Made by a program: the position numbers and the translations under genes
The notes under the pieces: generated by a model
What the model was told of the DNA's origin: nothing
Database searches by the model: none
Seen by the model: the letters and a program-made list of their open reading frames with translations, nothing else
Shown here: positions 28,426 through 61,539 of the stretch, piece by piece
Numbering within the stretch: position 1 is the stretch's first letter
Layout of the letters: the number at the start of each line of letters is the position of its first letter
Source of the DNA: Actinomycetota bacterium
GTDB taxonomy: Bacteria > Actinomycetota > Acidimicrobiia > Acidimicrobiales > Palsa-688
Direction: 5' to 3'
Assembly: GCA_021323695.1 (NCBI GenBank)
Contig: JAJPKN010000052.1
Span: 1-64,000, forward strand
DNA: 64,000 bases

Positions 28426-28503
28426 GGCGAGCCCGGGTGAGCGGGTGGGCCGGCCCGGGTGAGCGGGTGAGCAAGCCCGGGCGAGCGGGTGAGCCGGCCC
28501 GGG
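28426..28503. repeat. About four copies of a 20-22-bp unit
   Basis: CCCGGGTGAGCGGGTGAGC-like units recur with small changes between the pRiA4b-like gene and the glycosyltransferase at 28551. Non-coding as far as can be seen. Too few and too similar in spacing-free tandem form to be CRISPR. Confidence 0.7.
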
Positions 28504-29684: not shown

Positions 29685-29715
29685 CGGGGCCGTGGGAGGG
29701 GACGACCGAGCAGGC

Positions 29716-30993: not shown

Positions 30994-31025
30994 GCCCAGA
31001 TGGTTGCCCAGCGGGCCCTCCAGCG

Positions 31026-35210: not shown

Positions 35211-35224
35211 CGGGTGAGCCCCCG

Positions 35225-41985: not shown

Positions 41986-42157
41986 GCGCCGCGGCCGCCA
42001 ACGTGCCCTTTGCCACGGTGGCGGTGGTTGCCGCCAGTCGTGCCGCGAGCCACCCGGCTACTGCCATAGACCAGGTCCGGGGGCCGGCCCAGGCGAGTGC
42101 CCTGGCGCCCTTGCCCGTTGGTCGAGTTGCCGGGTCTGCACCCAGTCGGCCTGTCGT

Positions 42158-42178
42158 GCCATGAGGGGCCCTCATGGC
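42158..42178. promoter_or_regulatory. 21-bp perfect palindrome
   Basis: GCCATGAGGG (42158-42167) and CCCTCATGGC (42169-42178) are exact inverse copies around one G, in the 291-base gap before the GT2 gene. With one central base it cannot form a normal RNA hairpin, so an operator for a dimeric regulator is likelier than a terminator. Nothing else was recognised in the gap. Confidence 0.55.
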
Positions 42179-42276
42179 TCACGACGGCGCACCCCGTTGT
42201 CCTTGCCAGCACCAGGGCCTGCCGCAGGCACCTGGCGTTAGGCGACCAACCTCAAGTACCCGGAGGTACGGGCACT

Positions 42277-43171: not shown

Positions 43172-45172
43172 TCACGAGGCAGGCACGACCGCGACCGACT
43201 CAATGTCCCAAGTCGATGTCCCACCCCCCGGGTGCCAGTTGGCCAGCACAACTTTGACCCATGCTCGAGCTGGGTTAGCCACGGGCACCGCCATCACGTA
43301 GCTGCCCCCTTGGGCTTGACCGTACCAGAAGTTGCCGGTGGCCCCGCCGAGCCAGTCGTCGTGGCGCAGGTCCAGGGCGCCAATGCTCAGCCCTCCCGAC
43401 TGCACGGTGCCGCGTGCTACGACCACGTACCGACCTGGCGGGAGCAATATAGAAGGGCTGGACAACTGGTAGGCGTAGGTGCCGCCACTAGTACGAACTG
43501 CAACCCCATGAGCCGACTTGCGCAGGCGTGTGCCGGCATAGGTGGCCCACCCCGGGCCCTTGTGGCCGAAGTCCCAACTGGCGACGGGGGCTGCAGTGGG
43601 CACTTGTCCTGAGAGCTCTGGGAGGGTCGCCTCAGAGGCATAGGCGAACCGAGCCCTCCATATAGTGGCGTCGTGCCCCAAGACCACCGCTGCGGCTGCG
43701 AGGACGAGAGCAGCAGCGGCTACCGGCACCACAGGGACAGAGGTCCTTCCGGCCCCTTGTAGGCCGCTACTTGGCTGGAGCCAGCGCCCTGCGGCCGGGT
43801 AGTGGCGGCGCAATATGGCGGAGCTTCGCTGCTCGGCGAACGCCAAGGGGCGGCCGATGGCCAAGAACGCGGCCAAGCCGGTCATCGCCAGCCACGGCAG
43901 TTGGTACTCGTCCAGCGGCACGGTGAGCACGGGCGGCAACGACGTGACGAAGAGCACGGGCAGGAGCAGGAGCGGGAGCGCCGTCTCCCTGCGCTGCTCC
44001 TTCCAGTACAATAGTGCAACTATGTAAATGACAATAGGGAGCCAAAACTCATGGACAGCGCTGCCTACGACGACCACCGTCTTTTCGGCGTAGTCAGCTA
44101 GGACGTAGCCGGGGTCATGTGCGACCACGCTGGCAAAGGCGTGCTCCACGTCTTGTTCGTACGCGGGCGACTGGTCTTGGACATTTGGGTCGTACAGCAG
44201 TGCCGTCGCCAAGCCGTCAGTGTCGCTGTACTCGATGCCAAAACGGTTGGGCTGGATATAACTGAGGCCGAGGTAGATTTGGTGCCACAACGGGTGAGTG
44301 GCGCTCCCTGAGCTGGTAAGTGAAGCCGCAATTTCGTGGTCCCTGTAGGCGCGCACGCCGTCCAGCGCGAAGGGGTAGACCGACAACATAGCCAAGAAAG
44401 CGATGCCGAGGGCAGCGAGCCGGGGCCTCCAACCTTTGAGCCAGCAGAGCGCAGCAATGACGGCAGCCAGGAATAGGCCGGTGCCCGTGTACGACCTTAT
44501 CGAGTCGCAGAGGCTGGCGAGGACGCACACTGCCCCGATGCCTACGAGGCGGCCAGCGGTCGAGCGGTGCCTCAGGGCCAACAGCAATGGGACGGCCAGG
44601 AGGAGCACGAGGGCGGGTGCCCAGTACACGTCCACGAGCGGGACAGCCGTTCTCAGGATGTACCACAATGCCGCCGGGGCCAGCACAGCAGCCAACAGGG
44701 AGGCGAAGATCTCATAGGCCAGCAGCGGGTAGACCAGGGCGCCAAGAGCCGCTAGCGCTATGTAAAGGTCCCGAAGGGCAGCCCGGGGGTCGGCCAGCCC
44801 GAGGTAGTGGGCGAGGAGTGGTACGTAGAGGTACATGCCTTGGTCATCGCCTGGCCCGACGGCGTAAGGTGTCCCCGGTAAACCTGGTATGCCCTTGTGA
44901 GCCGACAAGTTGGCACCAGCATCACCAGGCTTGGGGGTGCCTTGGCTGAGGACACCAAGCAGCGGTGGGCCCCCATGGTCGAGCACGACGATGGAGCGTT
45001 GCATGTCGGCCAGGCGCCCCCCTTGCATGCTCACCTGTGAGGGGGTCGGCAAGCTGTGGCCCAAGAGCAGCACCATCACCAGCGCTCCTATGCAACCTGC
45101 GAAAAGGCAGATGAGCCGAGCGGTGCGGGCGGGCAAGGCCGGGCCCGAACTCGGATGTGACGTTATGGCCAC
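43172..45172 (-). CDS. Multi-pass membrane protein (GT-C-like) with C-terminal beta-sandwich domain
   Basis: Protein of 666 residues. About ten hydrophobic helices span residues 20-510 with a long outside loop near residues 45-110. HPLWHQIYLGLSYIQPNRFGI is a segment often seen in uncharacterised actinobacterial membrane proteins. The last 134 residues (from SWDFGHKGPG to the end) look like an external beta-sandwich with the pattern LLPPGRYVVVARGTV and TWDIESVAVVP. A GT-C glycosyltransferase using lipid-linked sugars is the best guess, not proven. It is the last gene of the operon and its start overlaps the preceding small gene by ten bases. Confidence 0.7.
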   Translation of the reverse strand: MAITSHPSSGPALPARTARLICLFAGCIGALVMVLLLGHSLPTPSQVSMQGGRLADMQRSIVVLDHGGPPLLGVLSQGTPKPGDAGANLSAHKGIPGLPGTPYAVGPGDDQGMYLYVPLLAHYLGLADPRAALRDLYIALAALGALVYPLLAYEIFASLLAAVLAPAALWYILRTAVPLVDVYWAPALVLLLAVPLLLALRHRSTAGRLVGIGAVCVLASLCDSIRSYTGTGLFLAAVIAALCWLKGWRPRLAALGIAFLAMLSVYPFALDGVRAYRDHEIAASLTSSGSATHPLWHQIYLGLSYIQPNRFGIEYSDTDGLATALLYDPNVQDQSPAYEQDVEHAFASVVAHDPGYVLADYAEKTVVVVGSAVHEFWLPIVIYIVALLYWKEQRRETALPLLLLPVLFVTSLPPVLTVPLDEYQLPWLAMTGLAAFLAIGRPLAFAEQRSSAILRRHYPAAGRWLQPSSGLQGAGRTSVPVVPVAAAALVLAAAAVVLGHDATIWRARFAYASEATLPELSGQVPTAAPVASWDFGHKGPGWATYAGTRLRKSAHGVAVRTSGGTYAYQLSSPSILLPPGRYVVVARGTVQSGGLSIGALDLRHDDWLGGATGNFWYGQAQGGSYVMAVPVANPARAWVKVVLANWHPGGGTSTWDIESVAVVPAS

Positions 45173-45510
45173 AGGTGTTGCTCCAGGCAGAACGACTGGA
45201 AGTCACTGCGGGACGCTGCTGTCCGAAGGCCGCTTGCGGCAGCCGAGACCAGGGGGGCGAACCTGGCGTCGACCCGAGCCGCCTGTTGTGCCTCCTGCTC
45301 GACTACGCTCAGGGGCGACTCGTCCCGGACGATGAGGGCGTACCCGGCCGAGCAGGCCAGGAGGGCCTGTTGCCTGCCGTTGGGGAGGGGGAAGTGGGTC
45401 CAGGCCGGCTGGGTTGCCTCGGCCCTGGCCCACAGCAACGCACCGGGCACGGCGAGGAGCAGGCACAGTGCAGCACCAAGGGCGATGGCCCAAAGGCGCC
45501 TACGCGACAT
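45163..45510 (-). CDS. Small membrane-anchored protein, unknown function
   Basis: Protein of 115 residues with one N-terminal helix (LWAIALGAALCLLLAVPGAL) followed by about 85 residues predicted outside the membrane. No known family was recognised. Met at 45510 is chosen because it gives a tight 11-base overlap with the Wzt gene. It lies between the exporter ATPase and the GT-C-like membrane protein, overlapping both, so a role in polymer export or modification is likely by context only. Confidence 0.65.
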   Translation of the reverse strand: MSRRRLWAIALGAALCLLLAVPGALLWARAEATQPAWTHFPLPNGRQQALLACSAGYALIVRDESPLSVVEQEAQQAARVDARFAPLVSAAASGLRTAASRSDFQSFCLEQHLWP

Positions 45511-47362
45511 CGGGCCGGGTGGTGGTCGGGGCCTGCGTGGGCTGGCTGCTAAGGGCCCAGTGGCCCTCGGCGACCCAGGCCGTCGCCTGGGCCAGGACCC
45601 TTTTGGCATGGACGTTGAAGTCTATGAGCTGGCGGACGGCTACGTGCACGTCGGGGTTGACCGTGTAAAAGGGGTCGCTCTCCCGGTAGCGGTCGTAATA
45701 GCCTTCGCGTGCGACCTGTAGGCTGACCGAATAGGGACCTGTCCCCAGCATGAGGTGGTCGAGGGTCATTGATACGGTGCCCTGAGGAGCGCTGTTGTAG
45801 TCGAAGCGCAGCGACCGTGTGAAGACACGGCAGGATGTGTCGACGCCGCTGCGTTGCAGGGAGACTGCGATGTCGCAGTTCTCGTTGAGCTCGGGGTCCC
45901 TGACCTCGTAGTCGAACGAGAAGGTGAAGGGTTCTCCGTGCCAGAAGTCGAACGTCTCTTGGCCGGAGGCGTTGGTGAGCCGGGGCCCTGCAATGCGTAT
46001 GCGCCCGGTGCCAAAGACGCTGGCGGTGCCCGGGTGCCCCGAGAGGGCCCCTTGTGTTGTGAGGCCTTGCCCCAGGGGCAGCTCCACGTGCTCCCAGCCC
46101 CGGTTGCCGACTTGCAGGAGCTGTTGGGCGACCAGGTGCTGGTCCACCCGGCAGCTCACCACCAGCCCGGCGGCTGTGTCAGCCCCTAGCTCTATGGCAA
46201 GGGTGAGGTGGCGGAGGTCGTCCAAGGCGGCTGAGGGTACCAGCATGGTGCCGCCCGCCCGGTGGAACGGCGAGCCGTAGTCCCGCATCGGCCGGGCCGG
46301 GGCCTCCAGCCAAGTGCCCACGTCGCCCCAGCAAGTACCCTCCAGGTCGAGAGCGCTGCTGGCGGGGCCGCCGTCGGCCAAGTTGCCGGCTGGGTGATCG
46401 TCAAGGGTGCTGGTGGTGACGCCGTCGACCACAGGCAGGCGGGCTATCTCCTTGGACTGCGAGAGCAGCCGGACCGAGCGCAGCCAGACCGGCCCTGGCA
46501 GCGGCCCGCCGTCTGCAGAGGACAGCTCCACGTGCAGGGCCCTGGGCTTGTGCCTGGGGCGGTCCTGGTCCCGCTGGAGGGCGAGGGCTGACTTGCTCCT
46601 GAGGCGCGCCTCTTCCTGCTGGCGGATGGAGTCCTCGTAGGCCTTGACGGCGTCCTTGGGGTCGCCGTCGAACACCACCCGGCCTTTTTCCAGCCAGACC
46701 ATGCGGTCGCACACCCGAGCGGAGGTGTAGATGTCATGGGAGACCAAAAGCAAAGTGGCGCCTTCGCGAGCTGACAGCTCGTTGATCCGGTCGAAGCTCT
46801 TGCGGGTGAAGTACGCGTCGCCGACCCCCAGCACCTCGTCCAGGACCAATATGTCGGGAGCGGTGACGGTCGAGGTGGCGAACATGAGCCGCAGCTTCAT
46901 GCCCGTGGAGTAGGTCTTCAATGGTTGGTCGATGTACTCTTCCAGCTCGGCGAAGTCGACCACTTCGTCCAAGAGCTCTGAAGCCCGGCGCCCCGAGATC
47001 CCCAGTTGGGCGAAATAGGCCTTGGCGTTGTCCCGGCCGGTGAACTCAGGGTGGAACCCGGTGCCGATCTCGAGCAGGGCCCGGGCGTTGCCGTTGACCT
47101 CTATCGACCCGCTGGTGGGCGGTATGACCCCGCTCACCAGCTTGAGGAGGGTGCTCTTGCCCGCGCCGTTGCGGCCGATGACCCCGAGACGTTCTCCTCG
47201 GGCAACCGTGATGGACACGTCCTCCAAGGCGAAGTGCTCGGTGTAACTGCCCCGCCGGCCGATGCCCAGCAGGTCCAAGATCCGTTGCTGAGGACGCTCG
47301 TAGAGCCGGTAGACCTTGGTCAGGTGCCGGGCCGCGATCGCGGGCTTGGTGGCGCTGGTCAT
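45500..47362 (-). CDS. wzt: Polysaccharide ABC exporter ATPase with C-terminal carbohydrate-binding region (Wzt-like)
   Basis: Protein of 620 residues. Residues 1-245 form the ATPase: Walker A GRNGAGKST, signature YSTGMKLRL, Walker B ILVLDEVLGVGD, switch His in LLVSHD. Residues 270-425 form an extra region with a beta-sandwich look (DLEGTCWGDVGTWLEAPA and HVELPLGQG). Residues 430-590 resemble the Wzt C-terminal domain that recognises the polymer's terminal modification. A middle region of this size is unusual. It pairs with the permease at 47369 and exports undecaprenyl-linked glycan. Confidence 0.9.
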   Translation of the reverse strand: MTSATKPAIAARHLTKVYRLYERPQQRILDLLGIGRRGSYTEHFALEDVSITVARGERLGVIGRNGAGKSTLLKLVSGVIPPTSGSIEVNGNARALLEIGTGFHPEFTGRDNAKAYFAQLGISGRRASELLDEVVDFAELEEYIDQPLKTYSTGMKLRLMFATSTVTAPDILVLDEVLGVGDAYFTRKSFDRINELSAREGATLLLVSHDIYTSARVCDRMVWLEKGRVVFDGDPKDAVKAYEDSIRQQEEARLRSKSALALQRDQDRPRHKPRALHVELSSADGGPLPGPVWLRSVRLLSQSKEIARLPVVDGVTTSTLDDHPAGNLADGGPASSALDLEGTCWGDVGTWLEAPARPMRDYGSPFHRAGGTMLVPSAALDDLRHLTLAIELGADTAAGLVVSCRVDQHLVAQQLLQVGNRGWEHVELPLGQGLTTQGALSGHPGTASVFGTGRIRIAGPRLTNASGQETFDFWHGEPFTFSFDYEVRDPELNENCDIAVSLQRSGVDTSCRVFTRSLRFDYNSAPQGTVSMTLDHLMLGTGPYSVSLQVAREGYYDRYRESDPFYTVNPDVHVAVRQLIDFNVHAKRVLAQATAWVAEGHWALSSQPTQAPTTTRPDVA

Positions 47363-47368
47363 GGGTGC

Positions 47369-48211
47369 TCAGTCGTAGTCCACGAGGTGGGGCTTGGCCC
47401 GGGCGAAGAAGGCGGCCCCTACGAAGTAGGTTACGAGGGCGATGGCACCCGCAGCCAGCAGGGACGCCCAGTCCCAGCCGGTGGCGGGCAGGGTAGCCAG
47501 GCGGAAGGGCAACAAGAGGTAGTACACCGGGTTGGCCCAGACGATGAAGTGGTAGCCGACGGGCAGGGCGGCCGGTTTGAAGGCGATGGGGGACACGAAC
47601 AGCACGAACAGGACCAACAGGTTGGTGAAGTAACCGACGTCGGGGAACAGGACCCCAAGCGGGGCCAGGAACATGGCCACCCCCAGCAAGTAGGTGGCTT
47701 CGATGGCGAGCGCCAGGGGGAGGACGGCCAAGCGGGGGCTGCCGGAGCCGCTGGCCAGGTCCAGGGCCAGCAGCATGGCCAGCCCGACCACCTCGCTGAC
47801 CAGGGCCATGCCCACCGCCCGGGCCGGGATCATCTCGACCGGCAGGATGATGTTGCGGACCAGGTGAAGGTTCTGCTTCACCGATACCACGCCCGCCGTG
47901 ACCGCCTCCATGACCGCGATGTAGGGCACCAGGCCGGAGAAGATGTAGACGACGTAGTCGAGGGTGGAGTAGCTCCGGTACCGGACCTTGAACACCACCA
48001 GGTAGACGAACAGGTATATGGCCAGCCAGAGCACGGGGTACAGCACGATCCAAGCCCGCCCGAGCAAGGAGCCCGAGTAGCGCTTCTCGAGCTCGACCCT
48101 GGTGGTGGCGGCCAGGACCTGGCGGTGGCGCCCGAGCAAACGGGCCAAGCGGAGCCCGGGGCCGACGAGCCCCGCCCGGTCCGCAGAGCGGGCCCGGGAG
48201 GGCTCAGCCAC
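47369..48211 (-). CDS. wzm: Polysaccharide ABC exporter permease (Wzm-like)
   Basis: ABC-2 membrane protein of 280 residues with six hydrophobic helices. ELEKRYSGSLLGRAWIVLYPVLW is the amphipathic start of the family, and SPIAFKPAALP and NPVYYLLLPFR match its C-terminal half. GTG 48211 is chosen because AAGGAG lies seven bases upstream; it overlaps the heparinase stop by eight bases. Met 48232 is an alternative. It works with the Wzt-like ATPase that starts seven bases after its stop. Confidence 0.9.
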   Translation of the reverse strand: MAEPSRARSADRAGLVGPGLRLARLLGRHRQVLAATTRVELEKRYSGSLLGRAWIVLYPVLWLAIYLFVYLVVFKVRYRSYSTLDYVVYIFSGLVPYIAVMEAVTAGVVSVKQNLHLVRNIILPVEMIPARAVGMALVSEVVGLAMLLALDLASGSGSPRLAVLPLALAIEATYLLGVAMFLAPLGVLFPDVGYFTNLLVLFVLFVSPIAFKPAALPVGYHFIVWANPVYYLLLPFRLATLPATGWDWASLLAAGAIALVTYFVGAAFFARAKPHLVDYD

Positions 48212-50456
48212 CTGGGTGCTCCTTGGCCCCATAGCCAGGCGAGAAGGGCACCGGGGCCGGTACCAGGCGCTGGAGGCCTGCCGGGCTGGTGACCACGGCC
48301 TCGGCCCGGGGCCGGACGGCGGGGCCGTGGGGCCCCGCCAGCCGGGGGACAGCATCGCTCACGGCAACATACTGGTCGGCGAGCCGCACCTCTCGCACGG
48401 TGGGGGGCCCGTAGCCCCAATGGGCGCCGGCGAAGCCTTCCGGCCCGAACCACAAGCAGCGGGCCCGGGCGCGCTCGGGGAGCAAGAACAGCCCGGCGCT
48501 CAGGTCGCCCGGCTCGGCGCCGTCCATGTGAGGGACCAGGTGGGCCTGGGCCGAGCGGTAGGCATTGCGGGCCTCTGGCACCGGGGTGTACAGGTAGCTC
48601 CCCGGGTCCCGGGACCAGGGGCGGCCGTCCAGCTCGACCTCCAGGCCCAGTTGGTCGTTGTGGCTGTGGCCGCCCCCGCCGGCCTGGCCTACGGGGCCGC
48701 AACGGATGGCCAGGTACAGCCGGCGCGAGCGCAGCACGAACAGCCCGAAGTCCGGGAACGCCACTGCCTCCAGGCCATCGAGGAGCCCGCCACCTCCCGG
48801 TACCAGCCTCCACCGCAGGGTGCTGTGGCTGCCAGCCGCCTCCAGTTCGTCCACGCTGAGGCCGCCCGAGCTTGCGCCCGGCCTTGCCCCGATGGGCACC
48901 GGGGCACCTCGCCACAGCGCCCGGCAGGCCTGGGTGGCCTCCTGCCCGCTCGCCCCGGAGGCGGCCCAGGCCACCTCGGCCGACAAGGCCCGCCCGAGGC
49001 TCCCCCTCTCTGGCCCGTCCAACAGGGCTTGGCCGGCCACCAGCAGGTGGGCGTGGGCCAGGCTGTCTTGTGCCCAGTGGACGTCGTCGTCCGGGAGCTC
49101 GTCGTAACCCTCGAGGTTGGCCCAACGGGCCTTGGCCTCAGCCACGGTCACCCTCGCTGGCAACGGTGCGACCGCCAAGAAGCGGCCGCTGTCGTTGTCA
49201 CCGACCTGGGCCACCTGGCCGTCGTGCCTGGTGGCCCACGCGCTGAACCCCAGCATCCGCCGTACCCGTTCGAGCTGGCCCTGGTACTGCGGTGGCGTCA
49301 GCGCACCCACGCTGGCCAGCAACGCCGTCGTGTAGACGACCATCTCGGCAGACAGGCGGTGGTAACAGGTCGAGGCCTCCTTGTTGCCGCCGTCTGGGTA
49401 GAACTGCAGCTCCGTCTCGGCCACCAGCTCACGGGCAGCCAAGGCCAGCCAGCGCCGGGCCGAAGAGGGCGGGCGGCCTCCGTTGGCCAAGTAGGCGCTG
49501 GCAAAGGCCAGCCCGCAGATGTCGGCCAGGTAGTGGTTGGACCTGAACACCGGGTGCCACTCCAAGTTGGCGGCTATGAAGCGGGCGTGGTCGTGGACCG
49601 AGGCCACGAGCACCGCCTCGAAGGCTGGGTCAGCTGGCGCCCCGTAGGCGCGCAGCAGGTCGTAGGCGACCAACCAGTTGGCTACCCGGATGGCGACGTC
49701 CATGGTGCAGCTCCAGTTGACGCCGTAGCGAGGGGGGTTGGTGGCGATGAAGTCGAGGACCTGGTCCTTGACTTCAGTGAGGTAGCGCTCGGCGGGCAAA
49801 AAGCGGCGGTCGCCGGCCACCGCCGCCCCGTAGGCGAGCGCCAGGCGGGGCAGGTGCTGGGCGCGGGCTAGCTCCCAGGGGACCTTCACGTCGGCGCCCG
49901 GCACCTGCCCGTAGGTGATGTCCCGGTACCAGGTGGTCGGCTCCCAGCGGAAGCCGGACTTGAAGTCCACGTGCCAGTCGATGGGGCGGTAGCCCCTGCT
50001 CACCAGTCCCCATGCTTGACGTGCCCGGGCCAGGTTGGCCGGGTTCACCCTGCCCGCCAGCCAAGCGCCGCCCTCGTCGGCCGCGACCTGCGGGCCGGGT
50101 GCGAAGGCGTGGCCTTCGGTCCCCCGGTAGCGGCGGCCGTAGCGGACTTGCACCCAGCCCGAGCCGAGCAGGTCGAAGCGGTGCTCGACGTAGCGGAGGC
50201 AGGCCCCGGCCAGGGCGTCGCCGCCGCTGCCGTCCCAGGTGCTGGCCGGGGCAGGCAGGATCCGGGCCAGGCTTGGCCCCAGGCCGCCCGGGCCGCGCCG
50301 CACGCCGGAGTAGGTGGGCAATACCCGGTCGCGCTGGCGGCTGGCCCAGCGCGTCGAAGCACCCCACGCCCGGCGCCCAGCTTCCCTGGCGACAGCCCGG
50401 GGTGGTGCGGAGAGGGCCTTGCGGGCCAGGCTCACTACCTTGCGCGCACCCTTCAC
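48204..50456 (-). CDS. Heparinase II/III-like protein A
   Basis: Protein of 750 residues. The first half is an alpha-toroid region (GVNWSCTMDVAIRVANW and SNHYLADICGLAF) and the second contains the heparinase II/III beta domain with GGGGHSHNDQLGLEVELDG and DPGSYLYT. The family cleaves or epimerises uronic-acid polymers. There is no signal peptide, so it is predicted cytoplasmic, which argues against scavenging of external polymer. It shares this architecture with the protein at 54097. The start overlaps the glycosyltransferase stop by four bases. Confidence 0.87.
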   Translation of the reverse strand: MKGARKVVSLARKALSAPPRAVAREAGRRAWGASTRWASRQRDRVLPTYSGVRRGPGGLGPSLARILPAPASTWDGSGGDALAGACLRYVEHRFDLLGSGWVQVRYGRRYRGTEGHAFAPGPQVAADEGGAWLAGRVNPANLARARQAWGLVSRGYRPIDWHVDFKSGFRWEPTTWYRDITYGQVPGADVKVPWELARAQHLPRLALAYGAAVAGDRRFLPAERYLTEVKDQVLDFIATNPPRYGVNWSCTMDVAIRVANWLVAYDLLRAYGAPADPAFEAVLVASVHDHARFIAANLEWHPVFRSNHYLADICGLAFASAYLANGGRPPSSARRWLALAARELVAETELQFYPDGGNKEASTCYHRLSAEMVVYTTALLASVGALTPPQYQGQLERVRRMLGFSAWATRHDGQVAQVGDNDSGRFLAVAPLPARVTVAEAKARWANLEGYDELPDDDVHWAQDSLAHAHLLVAGQALLDGPERGSLGRALSAEVAWAASGASGQEATQACRALWRGAPVPIGARPGASSGGLSVDELEAAGSHSTLRWRLVPGGGGLLDGLEAVAFPDFGLFVLRSRRLYLAIRCGPVGQAGGGGHSHNDQLGLEVELDGRPWSRDPGSYLYTPVPEARNAYRSAQAHLVPHMDGAEPGDLSAGLFLLPERARARCLWFGPEGFAGAHWGYGPPTVREVRLADQYVAVSDAVPRLAGPHGPAVRPRAEAVVTSPAGLQRLVPAPVPFSPGYGAKEHPGG

Positions 50457-52093
50457 CCCGAGCCCAGCACCTCCTCGGCCCTGGCTGCTATGCGCTCAGC
50501 GTGCTGGTGCCATGTGTAGCGTTCGACGGCGTCGCGCCGGGCCTGGTCGCCCAGGCGACGGCGCAGGCCCGGGTCGGCCACGAGGGCGGTGATGGCCGCG
50601 GCCAGGTCTTGGTCGTCCCCCGGGCGGACGAGCAGGCCGTTGCGGCCGTGCTCGACCACCTGGCCCAGCTGGCCCAGGTCAGAGGCCACCACCGCCTTGC
50701 CCATGGCCAGGTACTCGAACAGCTTGGTCGGGGAGCCGAAAAAGACGCTGCCGTCGGCGTTTGGGACGTGCGGTGCCACCAGGATGTCGCAGGCGGCCAT
50801 ATAGGCCGGGCCCTCGGCTTGGGGGACCAGCCCGGCAAAGGTCACCTGCCCCGACAGCCCAGCCGCCTCGACGAGCGCCCGGGTGGCTGCCAAGCGCGAC
50901 CCGTCCCCGACGAACAGCAGGTGCACGGGCACCGGGGAGCGGGCCACCACCAGGCGAAAGGCACGAGCCAGCACCTCCGCGCCGTGCCAGGCGCCAAAAG
51001 TGCCCACGAAGCCCACCACCACGGCCTCGGGCGGGGCCCCAAGGCTGGCCCGAACGCCGGAGCCGTCGACTGATGGGTGGTAGCGGTCGGTGTCGGCCCC
51101 GTTGGGCACCACGAGGATGCGCCCTTCGGGCACGCCGCGGGCCGCCACCTCCTCGCCCAGGGCTTGGCTCACGACCACGACCAGGCTGGCTGCCCTCAAG
51201 TTGAGGTCCTCGATGGCTATGGCCAGCGGTTCGTGGCGCAGGGGGCGGTGGCCCCAATGGCGGCTGATCCAGGCGTCAGAGCCGTTGTACTCGAGCACGA
51301 GCGGCACCCCGAGGTCCTGGGCCAGGGCGGCGGCAGCATAGCAGTAAGCGGTGGCCCGGTGGTACAAGAAGGCCGGCACCCGGCCGTCGAGCAGCTTCAG
51401 GACCTGGTCGTGGACGTGGCGGTTGAACTCGAGCCGCCACAGCAGGTCAACCGAGGGCCGAAAGGGGCTCGGGGGCAGGACATGGGCTTCCAGGGCAGGG
51501 CTCACCAGGGGTACCGGGGCGGTCGTCACCATGACCGCGCGGCGCCCTCGGAAGCGCAGGTGGTTGACCACCCCCGAGATGTGGGCCACCGCCCCACCGG
51601 CTTCGACGTCGAAGACCAAGTCGCTCCGCAGGTACAGCGGCGCGTCGGGCCCAGGGCGGGGCGGCTGCCTGCCCGAGAGGGCCAGGCTCAAGGCCTCGAC
51701 CTGGCGTCGGGCGCGCCTGATAGCCAAGGGTGCCCGGAGCCGGTCGGCGAGCCAGCGGGCGCAGAGGCCGGCTAGGTAAGTGGCAGAGACGTCCTTCTTG
51801 GTGCCGCTGTCGTCCTCCAGCCAGCAGGCGCCCCTCGCCAGCACCCGCAACAACAGGGCCGTCTTCAGGGGGTTGGGCAGCCAGGCCAGGTGCTTGGCCA
51901 TGGCCCGGGCCTGGCGGTAGCGGAAGCAACGCCGTGGTAGCTCCCTGGCCAGGTGCCACCGGGCCACCTGGTCGAGGCTGGCGCGCTCTTCGCCGGCCGA
52001 GGCGGGGCCCGGGTGCCCCCCCAGCTCCAGCGTGAAAAGCTCCCGGGCCTCCCGGGGCGGCACCGGTCGGTCAGCTCGCGCCGCGGCCCTCAC
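50453..52093 (-). CDS. GT4-family glycosyltransferase with long N-terminal extension
   Basis: Protein of 546 residues. The last 370 residues are a GT-B glycosyltransferase (NGSDAWISRHW, FVGTFGAWHGAEV and FGSPTKLFEYLAMGKAVVAS). About 150 residues before it, rich in Arg, Ala and Leu, match no known domain by eye. GTG 52093 is used, giving 23 bases of overlap with the AsnB gene; later starts cannot be excluded. It resembles the glycosyltransferase half of the fusion at 56187 (shared NGS and FGSPTKLFEY blocks). Confidence 0.83.
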   Translation of the reverse strand: MRAAARADRPVPPREARELFTLELGGHPGPASAGEERASLDQVARWHLARELPRRCFRYRQARAMAKHLAWLPNPLKTALLLRVLARGACWLEDDSGTKKDVSATYLAGLCARWLADRLRAPLAIRRARRQVEALSLALSGRQPPRPGPDAPLYLRSDLVFDVEAGGAVAHISGVVNHLRFRGRRAVMVTTAPVPLVSPALEAHVLPPSPFRPSVDLLWRLEFNRHVHDQVLKLLDGRVPAFLYHRATAYCYAAAALAQDLGVPLVLEYNGSDAWISRHWGHRPLRHEPLAIAIEDLNLRAASLVVVVSQALGEEVAARGVPEGRILVVPNGADTDRYHPSVDGSGVRASLGAPPEAVVVGFVGTFGAWHGAEVLARAFRLVVARSPVPVHLLFVGDGSRLAATRALVEAAGLSGQVTFAGLVPQAEGPAYMAACDILVAPHVPNADGSVFFGSPTKLFEYLAMGKAVVASDLGQLGQVVEHGRNGLLVRPGDDQDLAAAITALVADPGLRRRLGDQARRDAVERYTWHQHAERIAARAEEVLGSG

Positions 52094-54092: not shown

Positions 54093-54096
54093 GGCC

Positions 54097-56187
54097 CTAG
54101 CTCCGCGCCCACAGTTCGTCCGCGGCCCGGGCGGCCGAAGCAAGGTCGACCTCCACGTCGAGGGGGGCCAGGGCCCAAGTGACCCTCTCCGGCCCGTCGC
54201 TCCTTGCCGCGCGCAGCCTGGAGGCCGGTAGCCGGCGGCCGTAGCCGGGCGAGTACCAACACTGCTCCTGCCAGATCGCCAGGTCCCCTACCCACAGGCA
54301 CCCACCCCCGTCGGGCCCCCGGAGCAGGGCACGGCCCTGGCCCACTTCGGCCTTCACGCCCGGGTAGAGGCTGAACGACCACTCGACCACGTGCCCGTCG
54401 GTACCGCTCAAGAAGTCGTCCACCACCAGGACCGCCCCCTCCACGATGCTCACCCGGCGGCGGAAGGTCACACCCAGCCGCTCATAGGCGCTGTGCGAGC
54501 CGGCCACGCCCATGTCGGTGGCCTCCAGGTGGCCGCTCCCCCGTGCGAACAGGCGGAACAGCAGCTCGGGCCGCAGCTCGTGCTGCTCTTGGCCGTCGAC
54601 CATGACCGTGGTGTGCGCCCGGGTGGCCCGGAACGCATTGCGCGCTTGGGGGTCGGAGGTATAGCTGTAGCTGCCCGGGTCGGCGAGCAAGGGCTGCCTG
54701 CCCACCGACCACTCGACCGATAGCTGGTCGTTGTGCTTGTGGTTGCCGAAGCCGTCGGTGCCTATCGGCGTGTTCGCGATGAACAACTGGGACGGCCCGG
54801 CCCGGACCACTCCGGCCCCGCTGGCCGGGAAAAGGCGCACCGGGGCTTGCTGGCCACCGGGCGCGGCCGCCTCGCCCGGGAGGGCACCGTCCCCCCAAAA
54901 GACCCTTTCCATTTGGTCCGCGGGCCCCGTGCCCTCAGCCCATCGGGGCTGGCCCAGCACGTGGGCGGCGGCGACCAACAGCCAGTCCGCTGACTCGGTG
55001 GGCCACTTCCCGTACCGGGTGAACACATGGGCCCGGCCGTCGTCGGCGTCCCCCAACTGCGGGAGACGACCGCCCTCCTGACGTACGGCGGCCAGGAAGT
55101 CGAAGCCGGCGGCGACCCGCTGGCGGTACGCCTCCGAAAGACGGTGCCCAGCCTGGTTGCCAAGTGCCCAAGCTGACAGCAGCATCTCCAGCACCAAGCG
55201 CAGGTAGGGGATGCTGGCTTCGAACGGGCCCCCGTCCGGGTTGACCTGCCTTTGGCATTCTGCCTCCAGTGCCCTTTCGGCCGTACCCCGCCAGAGGGCG
55301 CCGGCGTCGAGCCCGGGGAAGTTGAGCGCCAGCCAGTACAGCCCGAAAACGTTGGCCAGGTAGTGGTTGGACGTCACGACCCTGCCGTCAAGCGTGCCGA
55401 ACTCGAGGTGGGCGAGCATGAAGCGGCCGTGGGCCACCAGGGACCGGCAGAACAGCTCCCACCATCGCCGGCCCAAGCAGGGGCTGCCCTGGAAGAACCC
55501 CAATGCGGCCAGCCACCCCACCACCCTCAGTGACACGTCCATGTTGCAGGCCCAGTGGGGCCCCAGCCGTACCGGGTTGCGCCGGGTGAAGTCCGAGATG
55601 CTGAGCGCGAAGCAGCGGGCGTACCTTTCGTCGCCGGTCAGCCAGTACGCCTGGCCGACGGTGACCAGGTGCTGGGCACGGCTGACCTCCCAGGGGCCTT
55701 TCACGTCGGCCCCGGGGGGCGGCAGGGCCAGGGAGCCCCAGCGCCACTCGCTGGGCCACCGGGGGAAACGCTTGCCGCTGAGCGGGTCGCGAGGCCAGTC
55801 CAAGCGGGCTACGCCCCCGGGCGCACGCCGCCTGGCCAGGGGTACTCCTTCACGCCCGAACAGGCTGAGCCTGCCCGCTACCGCGGCTTCAGCCACGCCC
55901 AGGATGCCTGGCACCGCGTCAGGCCAGTTGCTGCGGACGTCCTGGACGAAGCGGGCCCGGTCCACCGGCAGGAAGTTGCGCCGGCCGGCGCCGGCCACCT
56001 GGGCCTCCACGTACTCGGAGAAAGTGCCCAGGCCGTTGCGCCTCAGCAGGGCCGTCATCTCTCCCCGGCTGGGCAGGCCGCCCCAGCGGAGCTGTAGTTC
56101 CCAGATCCTTTCGGCAACGAGGTCGGCCCGCCTGCGCTCTTGGCGCACCAGCCTCTTGGCCGGGGCCGTGACTGCCGCCAGTCCCAC
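54097..56187 (-). CDS. Heparinase II/III-like protein B
   Basis: Protein of 696 residues sharing the architecture of the protein at 48204: alpha-toroid half with WACNMDVSLRVVGW and SNHYLANVFGLYW, and beta half with GNHKHNDQLSVEW and ADPGSYSYT. Identity between the two is low, so the pair is an old duplication or a pair of distinct enzymes. No signal peptide. GTG 56187 shares one base with the stop of the upstream fusion; GTG 56148 is possible. Substrate and reaction unknown. Confidence 0.87.
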   Translation of the reverse strand: MGLAAVTAPAKRLVRQERRRADLVAERIWELQLRWGGLPSRGEMTALLRRNGLGTFSEYVEAQVAGAGRRNFLPVDRARFVQDVRSNWPDAVPGILGVAEAAVAGRLSLFGREGVPLARRRAPGGVARLDWPRDPLSGKRFPRWPSEWRWGSLALPPPGADVKGPWEVSRAQHLVTVGQAYWLTGDERYARCFALSISDFTRRNPVRLGPHWACNMDVSLRVVGWLAALGFFQGSPCLGRRWWELFCRSLVAHGRFMLAHLEFGTLDGRVVTSNHYLANVFGLYWLALNFPGLDAGALWRGTAERALEAECQRQVNPDGGPFEASIPYLRLVLEMLLSAWALGNQAGHRLSEAYRQRVAAGFDFLAAVRQEGGRLPQLGDADDGRAHVFTRYGKWPTESADWLLVAAAHVLGQPRWAEGTGPADQMERVFWGDGALPGEAAAPGGQQAPVRLFPASGAGVVRAGPSQLFIANTPIGTDGFGNHKHNDQLSVEWSVGRQPLLADPGSYSYTSDPQARNAFRATRAHTTVMVDGQEQHELRPELLFRLFARGSGHLEATDMGVAGSHSAYERLGVTFRRRVSIVEGAVLVVDDFLSGTDGHVVEWSFSLYPGVKAEVGQGRALLRGPDGGGCLWVGDLAIWQEQCWYSPGYGRRLPASRLRAARSDGPERVTWALAPLDVEVDLASAARAADELWARS

Positions 56188-58925
56188 TACCGGAGCGCCT
56201 TGTCTGCCTTCACCACCAGGTTCCAGCCCATGACCCGCCCCAGCCAGGACGCGGGGACGGCCCGCAGCGGCTTGGGGCGCTCGGCCGGGGTGAACTGGTA
56301 CTTGTGCACCCGGACGCGCTCGAAGCCGGCGAAGAGCCGGCGTAGCGAGGCGGCGGTGTAGACCTTCACCAGGGGCCTGGCGCCGGTGGTGGACAGCTCG
56401 ACGTTGCGGGACATGATCTCGCCCATGGAAAGCTCCTCCAACTGCCACTGGCGGAGGCCGATGTCGCCCACGAGCTTGGCCCAGTAGTGCCAGGAGACCT
56501 CGGCGTAGACCATCACTATGGCCCGGCCCCCCGGGCGCAGCACCCGGTGCAGCTCTTCGACGGCCCGTTGGGTGCGCGGGGTGTGGTGCAGGGCACCGTT
56601 GGAGTACACCAGGTCGAACGAGCCGGCGGCGAAGGGGAGGTCCTCGCCGTCACCGGAGACGAAGTTGCCTTGCAGCCCCCTCAGGGCGAAGTTCTGCCGG
56701 GCGAGCTGCAGGTGGCCGGTGGACAGGTCGCAGTCGGTGGTGGACGCCCCGTTACGGGCGAACTGCACCAGGTCGGTCCCGATACCGCCCCCTACTTCCA
56801 GGACCTGCTTGCCTGCCCAGTCGGTGAACTCCATGACCTTGGGCATCCATGGCGCGTAGTCCACGTAGCGGTAGCGCTCGGCCTCCGCGAACCACTCGAG
56901 CGTGCCCTCTTCGGCCTGGGCGACGTAATGGGAGCCGCAGGGGTCAGCGTCCCACTGCCGCTTCACTTCGGCTTTGTAAGCCGTGACCGTAGCCGCTTGG
57001 CCCTCGGCGGTCCCGTGGCCTGGCCCGCTGTGCGCACGGCCCGCTCCGTCGGCGCGGGCGTCGCCGTCGCTGCGGTCTGCATGGCCCCTGGTAACGGTCT
57101 CGGGTTGGCCCCTGGTGGCCGCCTCAGCGGGGCGACCCGCCACCGCTCGAGCGCGCTGCCTCGGGGCAGCAGGCCGGGCCCCGGTGCTGGACGCGAAGGC
57201 CAACAGGCGCTCGACGTGCTTGGCCCAGGTGTAGCCCTCGACGAGCGCCTGGCGGGCGTTGCGGCCCAGTTGGGCGGCCACCTCGGGCCGGCCCACCAGG
57301 CTGCAGAGGGCCTCCGACAGTTGGGCTGCGTCCCCCGGTTCGCACAGCACAGCCCGGCGGTCCCCCACGACGAGGTCGTCCTGGGCGACCTCACTCGGTT
57401 TCAGGGCCGGCCGGAGCACTTCGCCGATCTGCTCCAGGTCGCTGGCGACGATGGCGCCACCCGTGGCCATGTACTCGAAGAGCTTGGTCGGCGACCCGAA
57501 GAACGGGCTGTCCACCATGTGGCTGGCATGCGGCGAGACGAACACGTCGCACGCCCGCAGCAGCCGGGCGCCTTCCTCGTGGTCCACCAGGCCGGTCATC
57601 ACGACCCTGTCCTTGCCCCCGCAGTTGTCGACCGCCTCTTGGACCAGCGGCCGGAGCTTGCCGTCGCCGATGAGCAGGAACGCCGCCCGGGGAGAGCGCC
57701 CCAGGACCTGGGGCAGTGCTTCGGCCAGCACCTCGATGCCGTGCCAGCCGCCGAAGCTGCCGGTGAAGCCGATGACGCAGTCGCTCGGGGCGAAGCCAAG
57801 CTCGCGGCGCAGGGCCGCCTTTTCCTCGCCAGAGGCCGGGCGGTAGGCAACGGGGTCGGCACCGTTGGGGTTGACGAGGATCTTCTCGGGGGCCACGCCC
57901 CTTTCCACCAGCGAGGCGCGGATAGGCTCGGACACGACGGAGACCACCGTGGCCTGGGCGAAGGCAGCCTCTTCGACCTCTTCGAACAGCTCCGCGCCCG
58001 AGTAGCCAGTGGCGTCGAAGCTCTTTTTGATCGACAGCTCGGATCCGTTGTACTCGACCAGGTAAGGGATGCCGAGCTCGTGGCAGAGCTGGGCACCGGC
58101 GAGGTTGCCCAGGCAGAGCCGCTCGTACACGAACGCCGGCTCGACGGCTTCGAACAACGGCCTCAATTGCAGGGCCCAGGTCGGCGTCGCGCTGAGCAGC
58201 GCGGTCTCGTTGGCTTCAGCCGCGTGGGCCTGGAGCACCACCTGGCGGGCCCCGAGCTTGTCCAGCAGTGGGAAGCGGTTGGCCATGAGGCAGGCGAACT
58301 GCTCACAGCGGCTGGCGAGCTCCTTGGCCACGTAGCAGGTGTGCCCGTAGCTGCCGCCCGTCTTGATGGGTGCCCAGTAGTCGGTGCGCAGGTAGAGCCC
58401 CCAACCCTGGACGCGGCCGTCGCTCAGCTCGGGGAAGGGCACTGGGCGCGCCCCGGCCAGCAGTGCCTGTGCCCGGCTGCGGACTTCTGCCACGGCCCTG
58501 TCCTGGGGGGCCGTGGCCAGGCCCAGGTCCCCTCCTACCCCCGAGGGGGGAGGATGGCGGCGGGCGTGGGCCTTGGCCCGCGCCCAAAGCGCCCAGTAGC
58601 TGGCCAGGCGAAGGACGTCGACGGCTTCGGCCGCGTGCTCCTGGGGCCAGAAGAACACGACCCGGTACTTGGGCAGCAGGCGGGCGGCGGCGGCCAACTG
58701 GTGGCGGCCAGGCCAGCCCCGGGCCATCTCGAAGACCACTCCCTGCACGCGGGCCCGCTTCAGCGACTCCCGGAACGGGCCGAGGAGGCCGAGCTCTGGC
58801 CGCCTCAGGCTGACCCTGTCCCTTTCTGCCAGGGCGCCTAGCTCGTCGCTGTGCACCACGCCCGCTTCGGTGAAGCTCGGGGCCACGTACAGCCAAGCGC
58901 CCCTTGGCCCCGGGGCCGCCCTCAT
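56187..58925 (-). CDS. Fusion of GT4 glycosyltransferase and SAM-dependent methyltransferase
   Basis: Protein of 912 residues. Residues 1-575 contain an N-terminal variable part and a GT-B core (NGSELSIKK, GFTGSFGGWHGIEV and FGSPTKLFEYMATGG). A low-complexity Arg/Ala/Gly/Asp linker of about 70 residues follows. Residues 650-912 form a class I methyltransferase with motif I LEVGGGIGTDL, DGEDLPF and SNGALHHT. The enzyme would add a sugar and methylate it or the chain end. A methylated end could be the cap recognised by the Wzt-like protein. It begins one base after the dehydrogenase stop. Confidence 0.88.
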   Translation of the reverse strand: MRAAPGPRGAWLYVAPSFTEAGVVHSDELGALAERDRVSLRRPELGLLGPFRESLKRARVQGVVFEMARGWPGRHQLAAAARLLPKYRVVFFWPQEHAAEAVDVLRLASYWALWARAKAHARRHPPPSGVGGDLGLATAPQDRAVAEVRSRAQALLAGARPVPFPELSDGRVQGWGLYLRTDYWAPIKTGGSYGHTCYVAKELASRCEQFACLMANRFPLLDKLGARQVVLQAHAAEANETALLSATPTWALQLRPLFEAVEPAFVYERLCLGNLAGAQLCHELGIPYLVEYNGSELSIKKSFDATGYSGAELFEEVEEAAFAQATVVSVVSEPIRASLVERGVAPEKILVNPNGADPVAYRPASGEEKAALRRELGFAPSDCVIGFTGSFGGWHGIEVLAEALPQVLGRSPRAAFLLIGDGKLRPLVQEAVDNCGGKDRVVMTGLVDHEEGARLLRACDVFVSPHASHMVDSPFFGSPTKLFEYMATGGAIVASDLEQIGEVLRPALKPSEVAQDDLVVGDRRAVLCEPGDAAQLSEALCSLVGRPEVAAQLGRNARQALVEGYTWAKHVERLLAFASSTGARPAAPRQRARAVAGRPAEAATRGQPETVTRGHADRSDGDARADGAGRAHSGPGHGTAEGQAATVTAYKAEVKRQWDADPCGSHYVAQAEEGTLEWFAEAERYRYVDYAPWMPKVMEFTDWAGKQVLEVGGGIGTDLVQFARNGASTTDCDLSTGHLQLARQNFALRGLQGNFVSGDGEDLPFAAGSFDLVYSNGALHHTPRTQRAVEELHRVLRPGGRAIVMVYAEVSWHYWAKLVGDIGLRQWQLEELSMGEIMSRNVELSTTGARPLVKVYTAASLRRLFAGFERVRVHKYQFTPAERPKPLRAVPASWLGRVMGWNLVVKADKALR

Positions 58926-58926
58926 T

Positions 58927-61539
58927 TCAGCCGTTCCCTTCTCGCAAGAGGTCTTCGACCGAAAGCGAGACGACCGAGGCCTCCATCACTTCTTCGAACG
59001 GTAGCGGGGCGGGCCCGCCGGCAGCCAAGGCGTCGCCCAGGGCCCGGACCTCTTCGGCGTGGCCTTTGTCCACCGAGCCGGACCACAGCACAGCCCCGTC
59101 CCCACAGCGCTCGGCCCTGGTGAAATCGTCTACCAGGTAAGCCTGGCCACCGCAGAAGACCTCGACCCTTTCTTTCGGCAAGCCCTGCTTGGGCCCCAGG
59201 CTGGTGTAGGTCAAGGTGGCCACGCTGCCGTCGCCGTACGCCAGCGTGGCGACGAAGTTGTCCGTCGGCAGGTAGGTGCCGGCCGGCGCGTTGATGCTGC
59301 TGGCACTGACGGCCTCGACGGGTGCCCCGGTCAGCCACCGGAAGACGTCGTACATGTGGCATGCCTCCCCTAGGTTACGGCCACCCCCGTCCGGCCCTTG
59401 CAGCCAGCTGTCCAGCGGCACGAAGCCGGCGTTCACGCGGTAGTTGACGACCAAGGGGGAACGCCGCCCGGCCAGCTCGTCGCGCAGCGCCCGCAGGGCG
59501 GGCGAGAACCGCCGGTTGTAGCCCACCATCAGGACCGGGGGGCGCTCGGCCGATCCGTAAGCCTCGGCCAGGCTGTCGAGCTCCTCCCAGCTGAGCGCCA
59601 GGGGCTTTTCCACGAACACGTGCTTGCCCGCCCTCAGGCCGGCCAAGGCCTGTGCGGCGTGGTGGCGGTGACGGGTGGCAATGACCAATAGGTCGATGTC
59701 GTCCCGGCTGAGCACTTCTTCGAGCTCGGTGGCCAGCACCTCGGCCCGAGCCGAGCGGGCCAGGTTGCCTCCTCGGGCCGAGTCCCGGCTCACCACCGCC
59801 GCCAGGGAGAACCGGCCGTCTTCAGCCAGGCGGGGCACCAACATGCTGGTAGCGAACGCCCCGGCCCCCACCAGCGCGTACCGGATCTTGCCCGGGCGGG
59901 CCAGGGCGTGGCCGCGCAGGGTCACCGATGTCGGCTCCGACCCCGGGGCGCCCGGCCCCTGGGGGTACTCGATGAGCACCCCGAGCGGCCTTTCGCCCTG
60001 GCCCCGCAGCGCTTCGTAGGCCTGAGGGGCGTCTGCCAGCGGCACTACCTGGTCGATGAGCGAGGCGACCTCCAGCCGGCCGCTGGCGAGCTGCTCCAGG
60101 TAGGCCTGCATGTTGCGGTTCAACGTCCAGCGCACGTAGCCGTAGGGGTAGTCGGCCCCTTCTTCTTCGTACCGGCGGTCGTAGCGCCCCGGCCCGTAGG
60201 AGGTGCTCATGAGGAGGTCGACCTCCTTGCGGTAAAAGCCGGCCCGCTCGGCTGCCAGCCCGACGTCCCCGACCAGCACGACCCTCCCCTTGCGGCGGGC
60301 GAGCTCCATGGCCAGGTTGACCGGGTCGTTGGACTTCGTGCTGGCCGCTACGACGACGTGGTCCGCGCCATGCCCCGAGGTGAGCTCCAAGACGGCCCGG
60401 GCCACGGCTGCCGGGTCATGGCTCCCGGCCTGCATGCCTGCCGCCCGTGCCCGCTCGACGCGAGCCGCGTCAGGGTCGTAGCCGATGACCGTGCAACCGC
60501 TGGCCAGCAGCAGCCGCACCACCAACTGGCCGATCAGGCCCAAGCCGATCACGCACGCCCTCTCCCCCAACTGGGGCTGGGCGCGCCGTACCCCTTGCAG
60601 GGCAATGGCCCCCACCGTCGTCGTAGCCGCGGCCCGCAGGTCCAGGCCCCGGGGGACCGGGCAGAGGAGGTTGCGAGGCACGCAGGCGTACTCGGCGTGG
60701 TTGGCGAACCCGGCGCCCGCGCAGGCGACCAGGTCGCCGGGGCGGACGTCTTCGACCCCCGCCCCCACAGCTACGACTTCCCCGGCGAGCGAGTAACCCA
60801 CGTTCCAGCCCTGCTGGCCCATGTCGCTGGCTGGCCCCCCGTCGGGGGCCGGGGGGAGCAGCTCCAAGCGGACCTCGTCGAAGACCGCCGTGCTTTGGCC
60901 CGCCCGCTCGACGTTGGCCAGCACCACCGTCACGTAGGGCTCCCCCGGGGGGAAGACGAAGCGGTCGTCGACGCTGCCGGGGCCAACCGCCACGCTGCCG
61001 GCCCATTTTGCCTGGCCACGGTCGAGCAGCCCCACCAACAAGGGCCACTGGCCCACCTCACCCCGGAGCCGCACTGCGGGCGACCAGCCGCCGGGCACCT
61101 CGACCGGTTGGGACACAGCCTGGTAGGCGTTGGGCACCGAGTCCCTGCTCAGCCGCAGCCTGCCGTCAGGGCCGGCTTCCAGGGTGGCCGAGCTGGCCGG
61201 CGACCAGCTGAGGTCACTGGCTGGGCGGGGCGCGGGCAAGCCGGGGCTGCGCTCGGGCAAGGCCCTCCGCACCCGCCCACGGGCCAGCGCCACCACCTGG
61301 CGGGTCGCCTTGCGAGGGTCGCGCATGGCTTTGGCCAGCAACCGGCGAGCAGCTTCCGACTTTGCCCGCAGGTCGTCGCCCGCCAGCAGGCCGGAGGAAG
61401 CCGGCGCCAGGGCGGCCAGCTCGGTGCCGGCGCTTATGAGCGAGTACCTGGCACGGACGAGCACCTGGCCGGGCTGGAGGGCGGGGCGGGGCATCCTCGC
61501 GAGGACCGCACCGGAACTGTTGAGCAGCACTTGGCGCAC
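58927..61539 (-). CDS. Two-domain oxidoreductase with inserted beta domain, copy 2
   Basis: Protein of 870 residues, first gene of the ten-gene operon. It has the MDR plus Gfo/Idh layout of the copy at 36331 (zinc-free, GLGLIG; later VGAGAFATSML, EKPLALSWEE and ACHMYDVFRWLTG), and blocks such as STSYGPGRYDRRYEEEG are shared nearly exactly. The MDR domain is interrupted at about residues 105-232 by a roughly 130-residue beta-rich segment (SDLSWSPASSATLEAG to VFDEVRLELL). No such insertion exists in copy 1. Reaction unknown; nucleotide-sugar modification is inferred from context. Confidence 0.88.
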   Translation of the reverse strand: MRQVLLNSSGAVLARMPRPALQPGQVLVRARYSLISAGTELAALAPASSGLLAGDDLRAKSEAARRLLAKAMRDPRKATRQVVALARGRVRRALPERSPGLPAPRPASDLSWSPASSATLEAGPDGRLRLSRDSVPNAYQAVSQPVEVPGGWSPAVRLRGEVGQWPLLVGLLDRGQAKWAGSVAVGPGSVDDRFVFPPGEPYVTVVLANVERAGQSTAVFDEVRLELLPPAPDGGPASDMGQQGWNVGYSLAGEVVAVGAGVEDVRPGDLVACAGAGFANHAEYACVPRNLLCPVPRGLDLRAAATTTVGAIALQGVRRAQPQLGERACVIGLGLIGQLVVRLLLASGCTVIGYDPDAARVERARAAGMQAGSHDPAAVARAVLELTSGHGADHVVVAASTKSNDPVNLAMELARRKGRVVLVGDVGLAAERAGFYRKEVDLLMSTSYGPGRYDRRYEEEGADYPYGYVRWTLNRNMQAYLEQLASGRLEVASLIDQVVPLADAPQAYEALRGQGERPLGVLIEYPQGPGAPGSEPTSVTLRGHALARPGKIRYALVGAGAFATSMLVPRLAEDGRFSLAAVVSRDSARGGNLARSARAEVLATELEEVLSRDDIDLLVIATRHRHHAAQALAGLRAGKHVFVEKPLALSWEELDSLAEAYGSAERPPVLMVGYNRRFSPALRALRDELAGRRSPLVVNYRVNAGFVPLDSWLQGPDGGGRNLGEACHMYDVFRWLTGAPVEAVSASSINAPAGTYLPTDNFVATLAYGDGSVATLTYTSLGPKQGLPKERVEVFCGGQAYLVDDFTRAERCGDGAVLWSGSVDKGHAEEVRALGDALAAGGPAPLPFEEVMEASVVSLSVEDLLREGNG

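Follow-up and report, generated by a model that had tools for sequence, protein, structure and literature searches.

Two paired oxidoreductase, amidotransferase and heparinase sets joined with an ABC exporter in an actinobacterial glycan operon

The ten-gene operon described here is a merger of two paralogous quartets, each consisting of a bi-domain oxidoreductase, an AsnB-type amidotransferase, a GT4 glycosyltransferase and a heparinase-like enzyme. In our preferred reading, about which our confidence is evenly balanced, the operon makes, edits and exports a surface uronic polysaccharide through an ABC pathway equipped with paired cytoplasmic tailoring sets. Each component is of a known kind; the module is little studied and is spread over many distantly related bacteria. 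To our knowledge, enzymes with the heparinase II/III lyase fold are known almost only as degraders. Conserved cytoplasmic heparinases with intact catalytic residues and with an oxidoreductase and an amidotransferase of their own would mean a new tailoring step in glycan assembly, and bacteria would then have a possible counterpart of the dermatan sulfate epimerase found in animals.

The operon occupies the minus strand of the window (the whole 64,000-nucleotide stretch of DNA that was analysed), where ten long open reading frames, all with high third-position GC (0.76-0.94), follow one another from 61539 to 43172. The uninterrupted co-directional run reported by the first-pass annotation is therefore real. 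With the likeliest starts, its nine junctions measure +1, -1, +4, +7, -4, -8 (or -29), +6, -11 and -10 bases (range -29 to +7), which amounts to five overlaps and four gaps of at most seven bases. The gap limit agrees with the earlier description, but its count of seven overlaps is reached only with longer start calls. The run is much tighter than expected by chance. Promoter and terminator scans gave nothing exceeding chance. Pfam and NCBIfam assignments concur with the families named before for the domain-bearing proteins. The genes, in reading order, are:

58927-61539, minus: ox1, bi-domain oxidoreductase (MDR/ADH and Gfo/Idh/MocA), 870 aa; Pfam ADH_zinc_N and GFO_IDH_MocA
56187-58925, minus: GTMT, GT4 glycosyltransferase fused to a class I methyltransferase; Pfam GT4 and Methyltransf_11
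54097-56187, minus: hepB, PL12-fold (predicted) heparinase II/III-like enzyme, 696 aa, start GTG 56187; Pfam Hepar_II_III N and C
52071-54092, minus: asnB3, AsnB-type glutamine amidotransferase, start GTG 54092; Pfam GATase and Asn_synthase
50453-52063, minus: GTb, GT4 glycosyltransferase, start uncertain (52063-52123); Pfam GT4
48204-50456, minus: hepA, second PL12-like enzyme, 750 aa; Pfam Hepar_II_III N and C
47369-48232, minus: wzm, ABC-2 permease, start uncertain (48211 or 48232); Pfam ABC2_membrane
45500-47362, minus: wzt, ABC ATPase with Wzt_C carbohydrate-binding domain, 620 aa; Pfam ABC_tran and Wzt_C
45163-45510, minus: small membrane protein, 115 aa, one hydrophobic segment; hydropathy and third-position GC
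43172-45172, minus: gtc, GT-C-like membrane protein, nine hydrophobic segments; hydropathy, C-terminal ox1-insert domain

The final two proteins match no Pfam family, and a homologue of the small membrane protein was not found. Their earlier labels suit the one and nine hydrophobic segments; that Pfam recognised no GT-C domain in gtc counts against our preferred reading.

The first-pass annotation left unconnected a group of genes at 28-42 kb, on both strands, namely ox2, asnB1, asnB2 and those of the GumK-like glycosyltransferase, WecB and a nucleotide-sugar dehydrogenase. These belong to the same locus as the operon. The genes surrounding the operon are:

28551-29777, minus: GT4 glycosyltransferase
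29716-31000, minus: nucleotide-sugar dehydrogenase, nearest to UDP-ManNAc/UDP-GlcNAc 6-dehydrogenases, start approximate
32009-33880, plus: asnB1, further AsnB-type amidotransferase
33999-35210, minus: GumK-like glycosyltransferase, adjoining hepA in other genomes
35186-36334, plus: GT4 glycosyltransferase
36331-38550, plus: ox2, second bi-domain oxidoreductase, without insert, partner of hepA and GTb in other genomes
38557-40446, plus: asnB2, AsnB-type amidotransferase of the ox2/hepA module
40449-41618, minus: WecB-type UDP-GlcNAc 2-epimerase (TIGR00236, 283 bits against a cut-off of 210)
42097-43041, plus: GT2 glycosyltransferase
61698-62894, plus: WecA/TagO-like polyprenyl-phosphate HexNAc-1-P transferase, divergent from ox1 (PF00953; ECA_wecA 117 bits)
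62904-63911, plus: NAD-dependent sugar epimerase/dehydratase

The nucleotide-sugar dehydrogenase scores 386 bits with TIGR03026 (over the cut-off) and 226 bits with PRK11064 (under the cut-off), and its proximity makes a uronic polymer plausible. Since it is nearer to HexNAc than to glucose dehydrogenases, the uronate may not be GlcA, which is the PL12 substrate, and we count this against our reading. The host genome has four WhiB genes and no LpxC, from which we take the host to be a monoderm actinobacterium.

Just outside the window lies a gene for a Wzy_C/O-antigen-ligase-type protein (L020:3441-5789), possibly a ligase or polymerase for the same glycan. The edge of the glycan locus carries a pRiA4b ORF-3-like protein (26909-28474, minus strand), whose family is named after a plasmid. 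Window positions 12001-18000, with GC down to 0.54-0.60 and GC skew up to 0.35, hold sugar-binding protein and permease genes and are possibly acquired DNA.

Quartet 1 comprises ox1, AsnB3, GTMT and HepB; quartet 2 comprises GTb and HepA, with its ox2 and AsnB2 on the plus strand at 36.3–40.4 kb. In the oxidoreductase tree, ox1 falls into a clade with 100/100 support that covers several phyla and is internally an unresolved star, and ox2 groups with actinobacterial and Burkholderiales copies. In the heparinase tree, HepB joins other module copies (100/99) and adjoins Rhodospirillales (100/100), and HepA stands with actinobacterial, Burkholderiales and Myxococcaceae copies. Matching clades in both trees mean that each heparinase subfamily pairs with one oxidoreductase subfamily. 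Outside module loci, 40 bi-domain oxidoreductase genes of Alphaproteobacteria and Myxococcota were examined within about 9 kb on each side; 17 had a heparinase, 17 an AsnB and ten both. The same genome carries a third set of heparinase, bi-domain oxidoreductase and AsnB (contig C65:13767-20000, L021), of a type seen in other actinobacteria; in the trees, its oxidoreductase groups with other actinobacterial copies, some of them from large genomes, and its heparinase also with other actinobacteria.

From the placement of AsnB between two heparinase-like genes it had been proposed that all of these act on the same uronic polymer. The arrangement is present but local, as elsewhere AsnB3 goes with HepB and ox1, whereas HepA goes with AsnB2, ox2 and GTb. 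Because HepA and HepB belong to different sets in other genomes, the two heparinases may act at different sites.

The first-pass annotation knew of no other case of this gene combination. A genome-context search revealed that it is not singular but recurs across several phyla, and the notion of a module unique to this genome was therefore dropped. A hepB scan, in whose query neighbouring genes played no part, yielded 16 loci, from Rhodospirillales, Burkholderiales, Desulfobacterota, Acidobacteria, Nitrospinaceae, Myxococcaceae and one cyanobacterium. Neighbours at these loci include a GT4 enzyme (15 loci), an ox1-kind oxidoreductase (13), Wzm (13, or 14 with L011), AsnB (10) and Wzt (7), and nine of the 16 carry two heparinases. 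The ox1-less loci (L008, L009 and L016) have a contig end just upstream, at or close to their start. At L004 and L005, wzm and wzt were not found next to hepB, which we count against our reading. Full-length ox1 orthologues, with 50-56% identity, occur at 13 other loci, and the set of ox1, GT/MT, HepB, Wzm, Wzt and AsnB is present in about six other phyla, with the operon order mostly kept.

Curvibacter lanceolatus has eight of the ten operon families in one run, together with UDP-sugar genes also found in the window. The order there (L007, continued in L168) runs WecB, nucleotide-sugar dehydrogenase, ox2, ox1, GTMT, hepB, wzm, wzt, asnB3, asnB2, GTb, hepA and GumK-like glycosyltransferase; only the small membrane protein and gtc have no match in the run. 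Similar runs are found in a Burkholderiales MAG and a Myxococcaceae genome. The modules are defined tightly enough for direct testing in the cultured C. lanceolatus. At two loci (L006:7038-9816 and L013:7127-9807) the glycosyltransferase and the methyltransferase of GTMT are two neighbouring genes, so the fusion is a lineage variant. A Rhodospirillaceae locus encodes, between GTMT and hepB, a protein with a weak match to the D-glucuronyl C5-epimerase C-terminus (L005:5595-7067), which hints at uronate epimerisation in the pathway; it is followed by a formyltransferase.

We found no paper in the open-access literature on the gene set, the paired module or synthesis-side cytoplasmic heparinases, which is not proof of their being unreported. 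The genes listed for psc1, an AsnB-rich locus of Burkholderiales, include no heparinase (PMC3684757).

Sampled actinobacteria with a hepA-like heparinase possess ox2, AsnB2, GTb, HepA and the GumK-like enzyme without ox1, GTMT or HepB (L071, and L072 from the same class as the window genome), and parts of this ox2/HepA module were seen in L059 and other actinobacterial loci. Since the ox2 module stands alone elsewhere, and GTMT and ox1 are rare in the sampled genomes, the window operon is an ox1 module that contains, between its AsnB3 and Wzm genes, the GTb and HepA genes of the ox2 module. Among 296 sampled genomes of its own class, GTMT was found in the window genome only, and horizontal acquisition is therefore likely. 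Vertical actinobacterial inheritance of the whole operon is unlikely, given this absence of GTMT and the 100/100 association of hepB with Rhodospirillales, although the ox1 clade branches as a star. Among 297 genomes from the phylum of locus L010, full-length ox1 at the cut-off used was found once, in the L010 centre itself.

Next we consider the heparinases themselves. Residues N274, H275, Y328, D503, G505 and Y509 of HepB do not vary among 57 homologues, and H483 and H485 have one exception each. N274, Y328 and H483 align with the catalytic Asn, Tyr and His of PL12 heparinase III, whose roles are described for PL12 and PL33 (PMC11848413). Judged by sequence, HepA and HepB both retain the PL12 catalytic residues. 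The AlphaFold model of HepB (pLDDT 88.8) predicts an (alpha/alpha) toroid with a beta-sandwich, and its best match is PL12 heparinase III (5jmf; Z 35.8, rmsd 5.1, 550 residues). All best fold matches are lyases; human DS-epi1 matches more weakly (6hzn_A; Z 21.9, rmsd 4.0, 538 residues).

Hydropathy indicated no signal peptide in HepA or HepB and no signal-peptide-like segment in 16 hepB orthologues, the top N-terminal 15-residue value being 1.37 among these and 1.74 among all homologues examined. Both enzymes therefore probably work in the cytoplasm, on polymer that is still growing. Catabolic PL12 members are secreted or periplasmic, a location not strictly required for the fold family. The operon heparinases look active-site-complete and cytoplasm-retained, and they appear to work during synthesis, not as external digesters. 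As to elimination or epimerisation, residues and fold favour a lyase; location and context favour on-pathway modification.

It is possible, though we hold this only tentatively, that HepA and HepB are polymer-level uronyl C5-epimerases, a bacterial counterpart of DS-epi1 that does no chain cutting. DS-epi1, with reported catalytic residues His205, Tyr261 and Tyr473, is a biosynthetic enzyme and a relative of these lyases (PMC11848413 among other papers). The common fold would fit such a role, as would the polymer-building context without secretion and the two invariant tyrosines of HepB (Y328 and Y509), which, like the adjacent Asn-His (274-275), were identified by comparison with its own homologues. 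However, sequence and fold are nearer to PL12 lyases, and the conserved Asn matches PL12/PL33, whereas His205 is reported as a catalytic residue of DS-epi1. Slightly less likely still, in our estimation, is that HepA and HepB are cytoplasmic quality-control lyases: they would use beta-elimination to cleave polymer that has stalled or been mis-exported, and would be dispensable for the final structure. Their Asn/Tyr/His set is that of PL12 lyases and their best fold matches agree, and the AlgL lyase of alginate operons offers a comparison case; but AlgL is periplasmic, HepA and HepB are not, and two subfamily-specific enzymes, found at many loci and each with its own oxidoreductase, exceed a housekeeping need. 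Very improbable is a role in chain termination through a lyase-made end cap. Beta-elimination by the cytoplasmic heparinases would then give the lipid-linked polymer a 4,5-unsaturated uronate at its growing, non-reducing end, and the paired oxidoreductase, AsnB and methyltransferase would convert this end into the export mark for Wzt; we know of no such termination for ABC-dependent polysaccharides. We give almost no credence to a degradative or salvage locus, in which heparinases and oxidoreductases would digest uronic polymers from the environment, with ABC genes that are importers or unrelated: heparinase II/III families are known mostly from catabolism, but Wzm/Wzt is of exporter type with Wzt_C, the heparinases have no signal peptides and are surrounded by glycosyltransferases, AsnB, WecA and WecB, and Pfam recognised no sugar importer, sulfatase or glycoside hydrolase in the operon.

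Our preferred reading, synthesis followed by export, draws on the exporter and its companions. Wzm belongs to PF01061, with TarG 6jbh (E 1.3e-11), 6m96 and 6oih (bacterial O-antigen-type permeases) as its nearest solved chains, and Wzt_C (PF14524) scores 33.2 and 34.5 bits against a cut-off of 30.4. Polysaccharide export by Wzm/Wzt is well supported by these matches. The domains also bear out what was proposed earlier, namely that coupled surface-glycan genes here combine an ABC exporter with a pair of heparinase-like enzymes and an amidotransferase of the AsnB type. AsnB3 has both glutaminase and synthetase domains, and the GTG start at 54092 puts the conserved Cys right after fMet. WbpS-type AsnB enzymes produce uronamides (PMC6025236). 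The acceptors of AsnB-like enzymes can be non-sugar, a point counted against our reading. GTMT carries a Pfam methyltransferase domain, a candidate chain-end modifier, beside its GT4 domain, and no WbdD-type kinase domain. Methyl capping of the polymer is plausible, and so, by analogy with WbpS, is its amidation.

Of the two oxidoreductases of the locus, ox1 carries at residues ~105-230 an insert, some 125 residues long, that ox2 lacks, and in which the AF2 model predicts beta strands (112-228) in a beta-sandwich-like arrangement:

60820-61242, minus: ox1-insert domain, no Pfam match, putative glycan-binding

The domain is repeated at the C-terminus of gtc (~43184-43552, minus strand; hhalign probability 95.6%, E 1.1e-8), and a whole-genome search (E 1.8e-9) found it in ox1 and gtc only. 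It was also searched for in Wzt and not found. Sequence searches gave no convincing solved relative, and the domain is undescribed. In other module-bearing genomes it is fused, in two copies, to an AlgX-type protein (L163), and also to membrane proteins at L164 and L165 and, judging from the search positions, to radical SAM/SPASM-type proteins beside ox1 (L004:2686-4581, L013:2130-4451). We infer that it binds glycan.

The product of the operon would be a surface, probably wall-linked, uronic-acid-containing polysaccharide of a monoderm actinobacterium, assembled in the following presumed order. Synthesis would begin on a lipid carrier through a WecA/TagO-type enzyme; GT4 enzymes would then lengthen the chain in the cytoplasm, where the two paired sets of oxidoreductase, AsnB, GT4 and PL12-fold heparinase would edit it before export. 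The heparinases may take the C5 proton from a uronate in the nascent chain, the linkage deciding between beta-elimination and C5-epimerisation; AsnB would amidate carboxylates, and the methyltransferase half of GTMT would methylate the chain, possibly as an end mark. The C-terminal domain of Wzt would recognise the finished chain for export by Wzm/Wzt, and gtc may act outside afterwards, through the same binding domain as the ox1 insert.

Among known systems, PL12 heparinase III (BT4657, Pedobacter HepC) shares the predicted fold and the catalytic Asn/Tyr/His with the operon enzymes, which differ in their low identity (~18-20%), in having no signal peptide and in standing in synthesis loci beside an oxidoreductase and AsnB. 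Human dermatan sulfate epimerase 1 has the same toroid and beta-sandwich fold and also acts on polymer during synthesis, yet it is an animal enzyme with a reported catalytic His205 against the conserved Asn here, and its fold match is weaker. Haloarchaeal Agl32 was dropped as a precedent because its own paper calls it unlike DS-epi1. WbpS-type uronamide synthases are similar, being AsnB-like amidotransferases from surface-glycan loci that also encode a HexNAc-uronate dehydrogenase; here one locus has three AsnB copies, for which a uronate is a putative acceptor. XrtA/PEP-CTERM loci (TIGR03108, TIGR04063) have related AsnB and GT4 families, with scores far under the curated cut-offs; this assignment was dropped, AsnB3 scoring 452.9 bits against 816.9 for TIGR03108. 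On a Streptomyces plasmid, asnB, a bi-domain oxidoreductase and an 'alginate lyase family protein' are consecutive, following the same set logic with the third subfamily that is also in the host genome, but in a context of Wzz and O-antigen ligase with no adjacent Wzm/Wzt. The ABC pathway for O-antigen or wall glycan (Wzm/Wzt, TarGH) has the same ABC-2 permease, Wzt_C ATPase, WecA/TagO-type initiation gene, GT4 enzymes and methyltransferase in the operon; unlike it, the operon described here couples two oxidoreductase-AsnB-heparinase sets to the exporter and has its methyltransferase fused to a glycosyltransferase.
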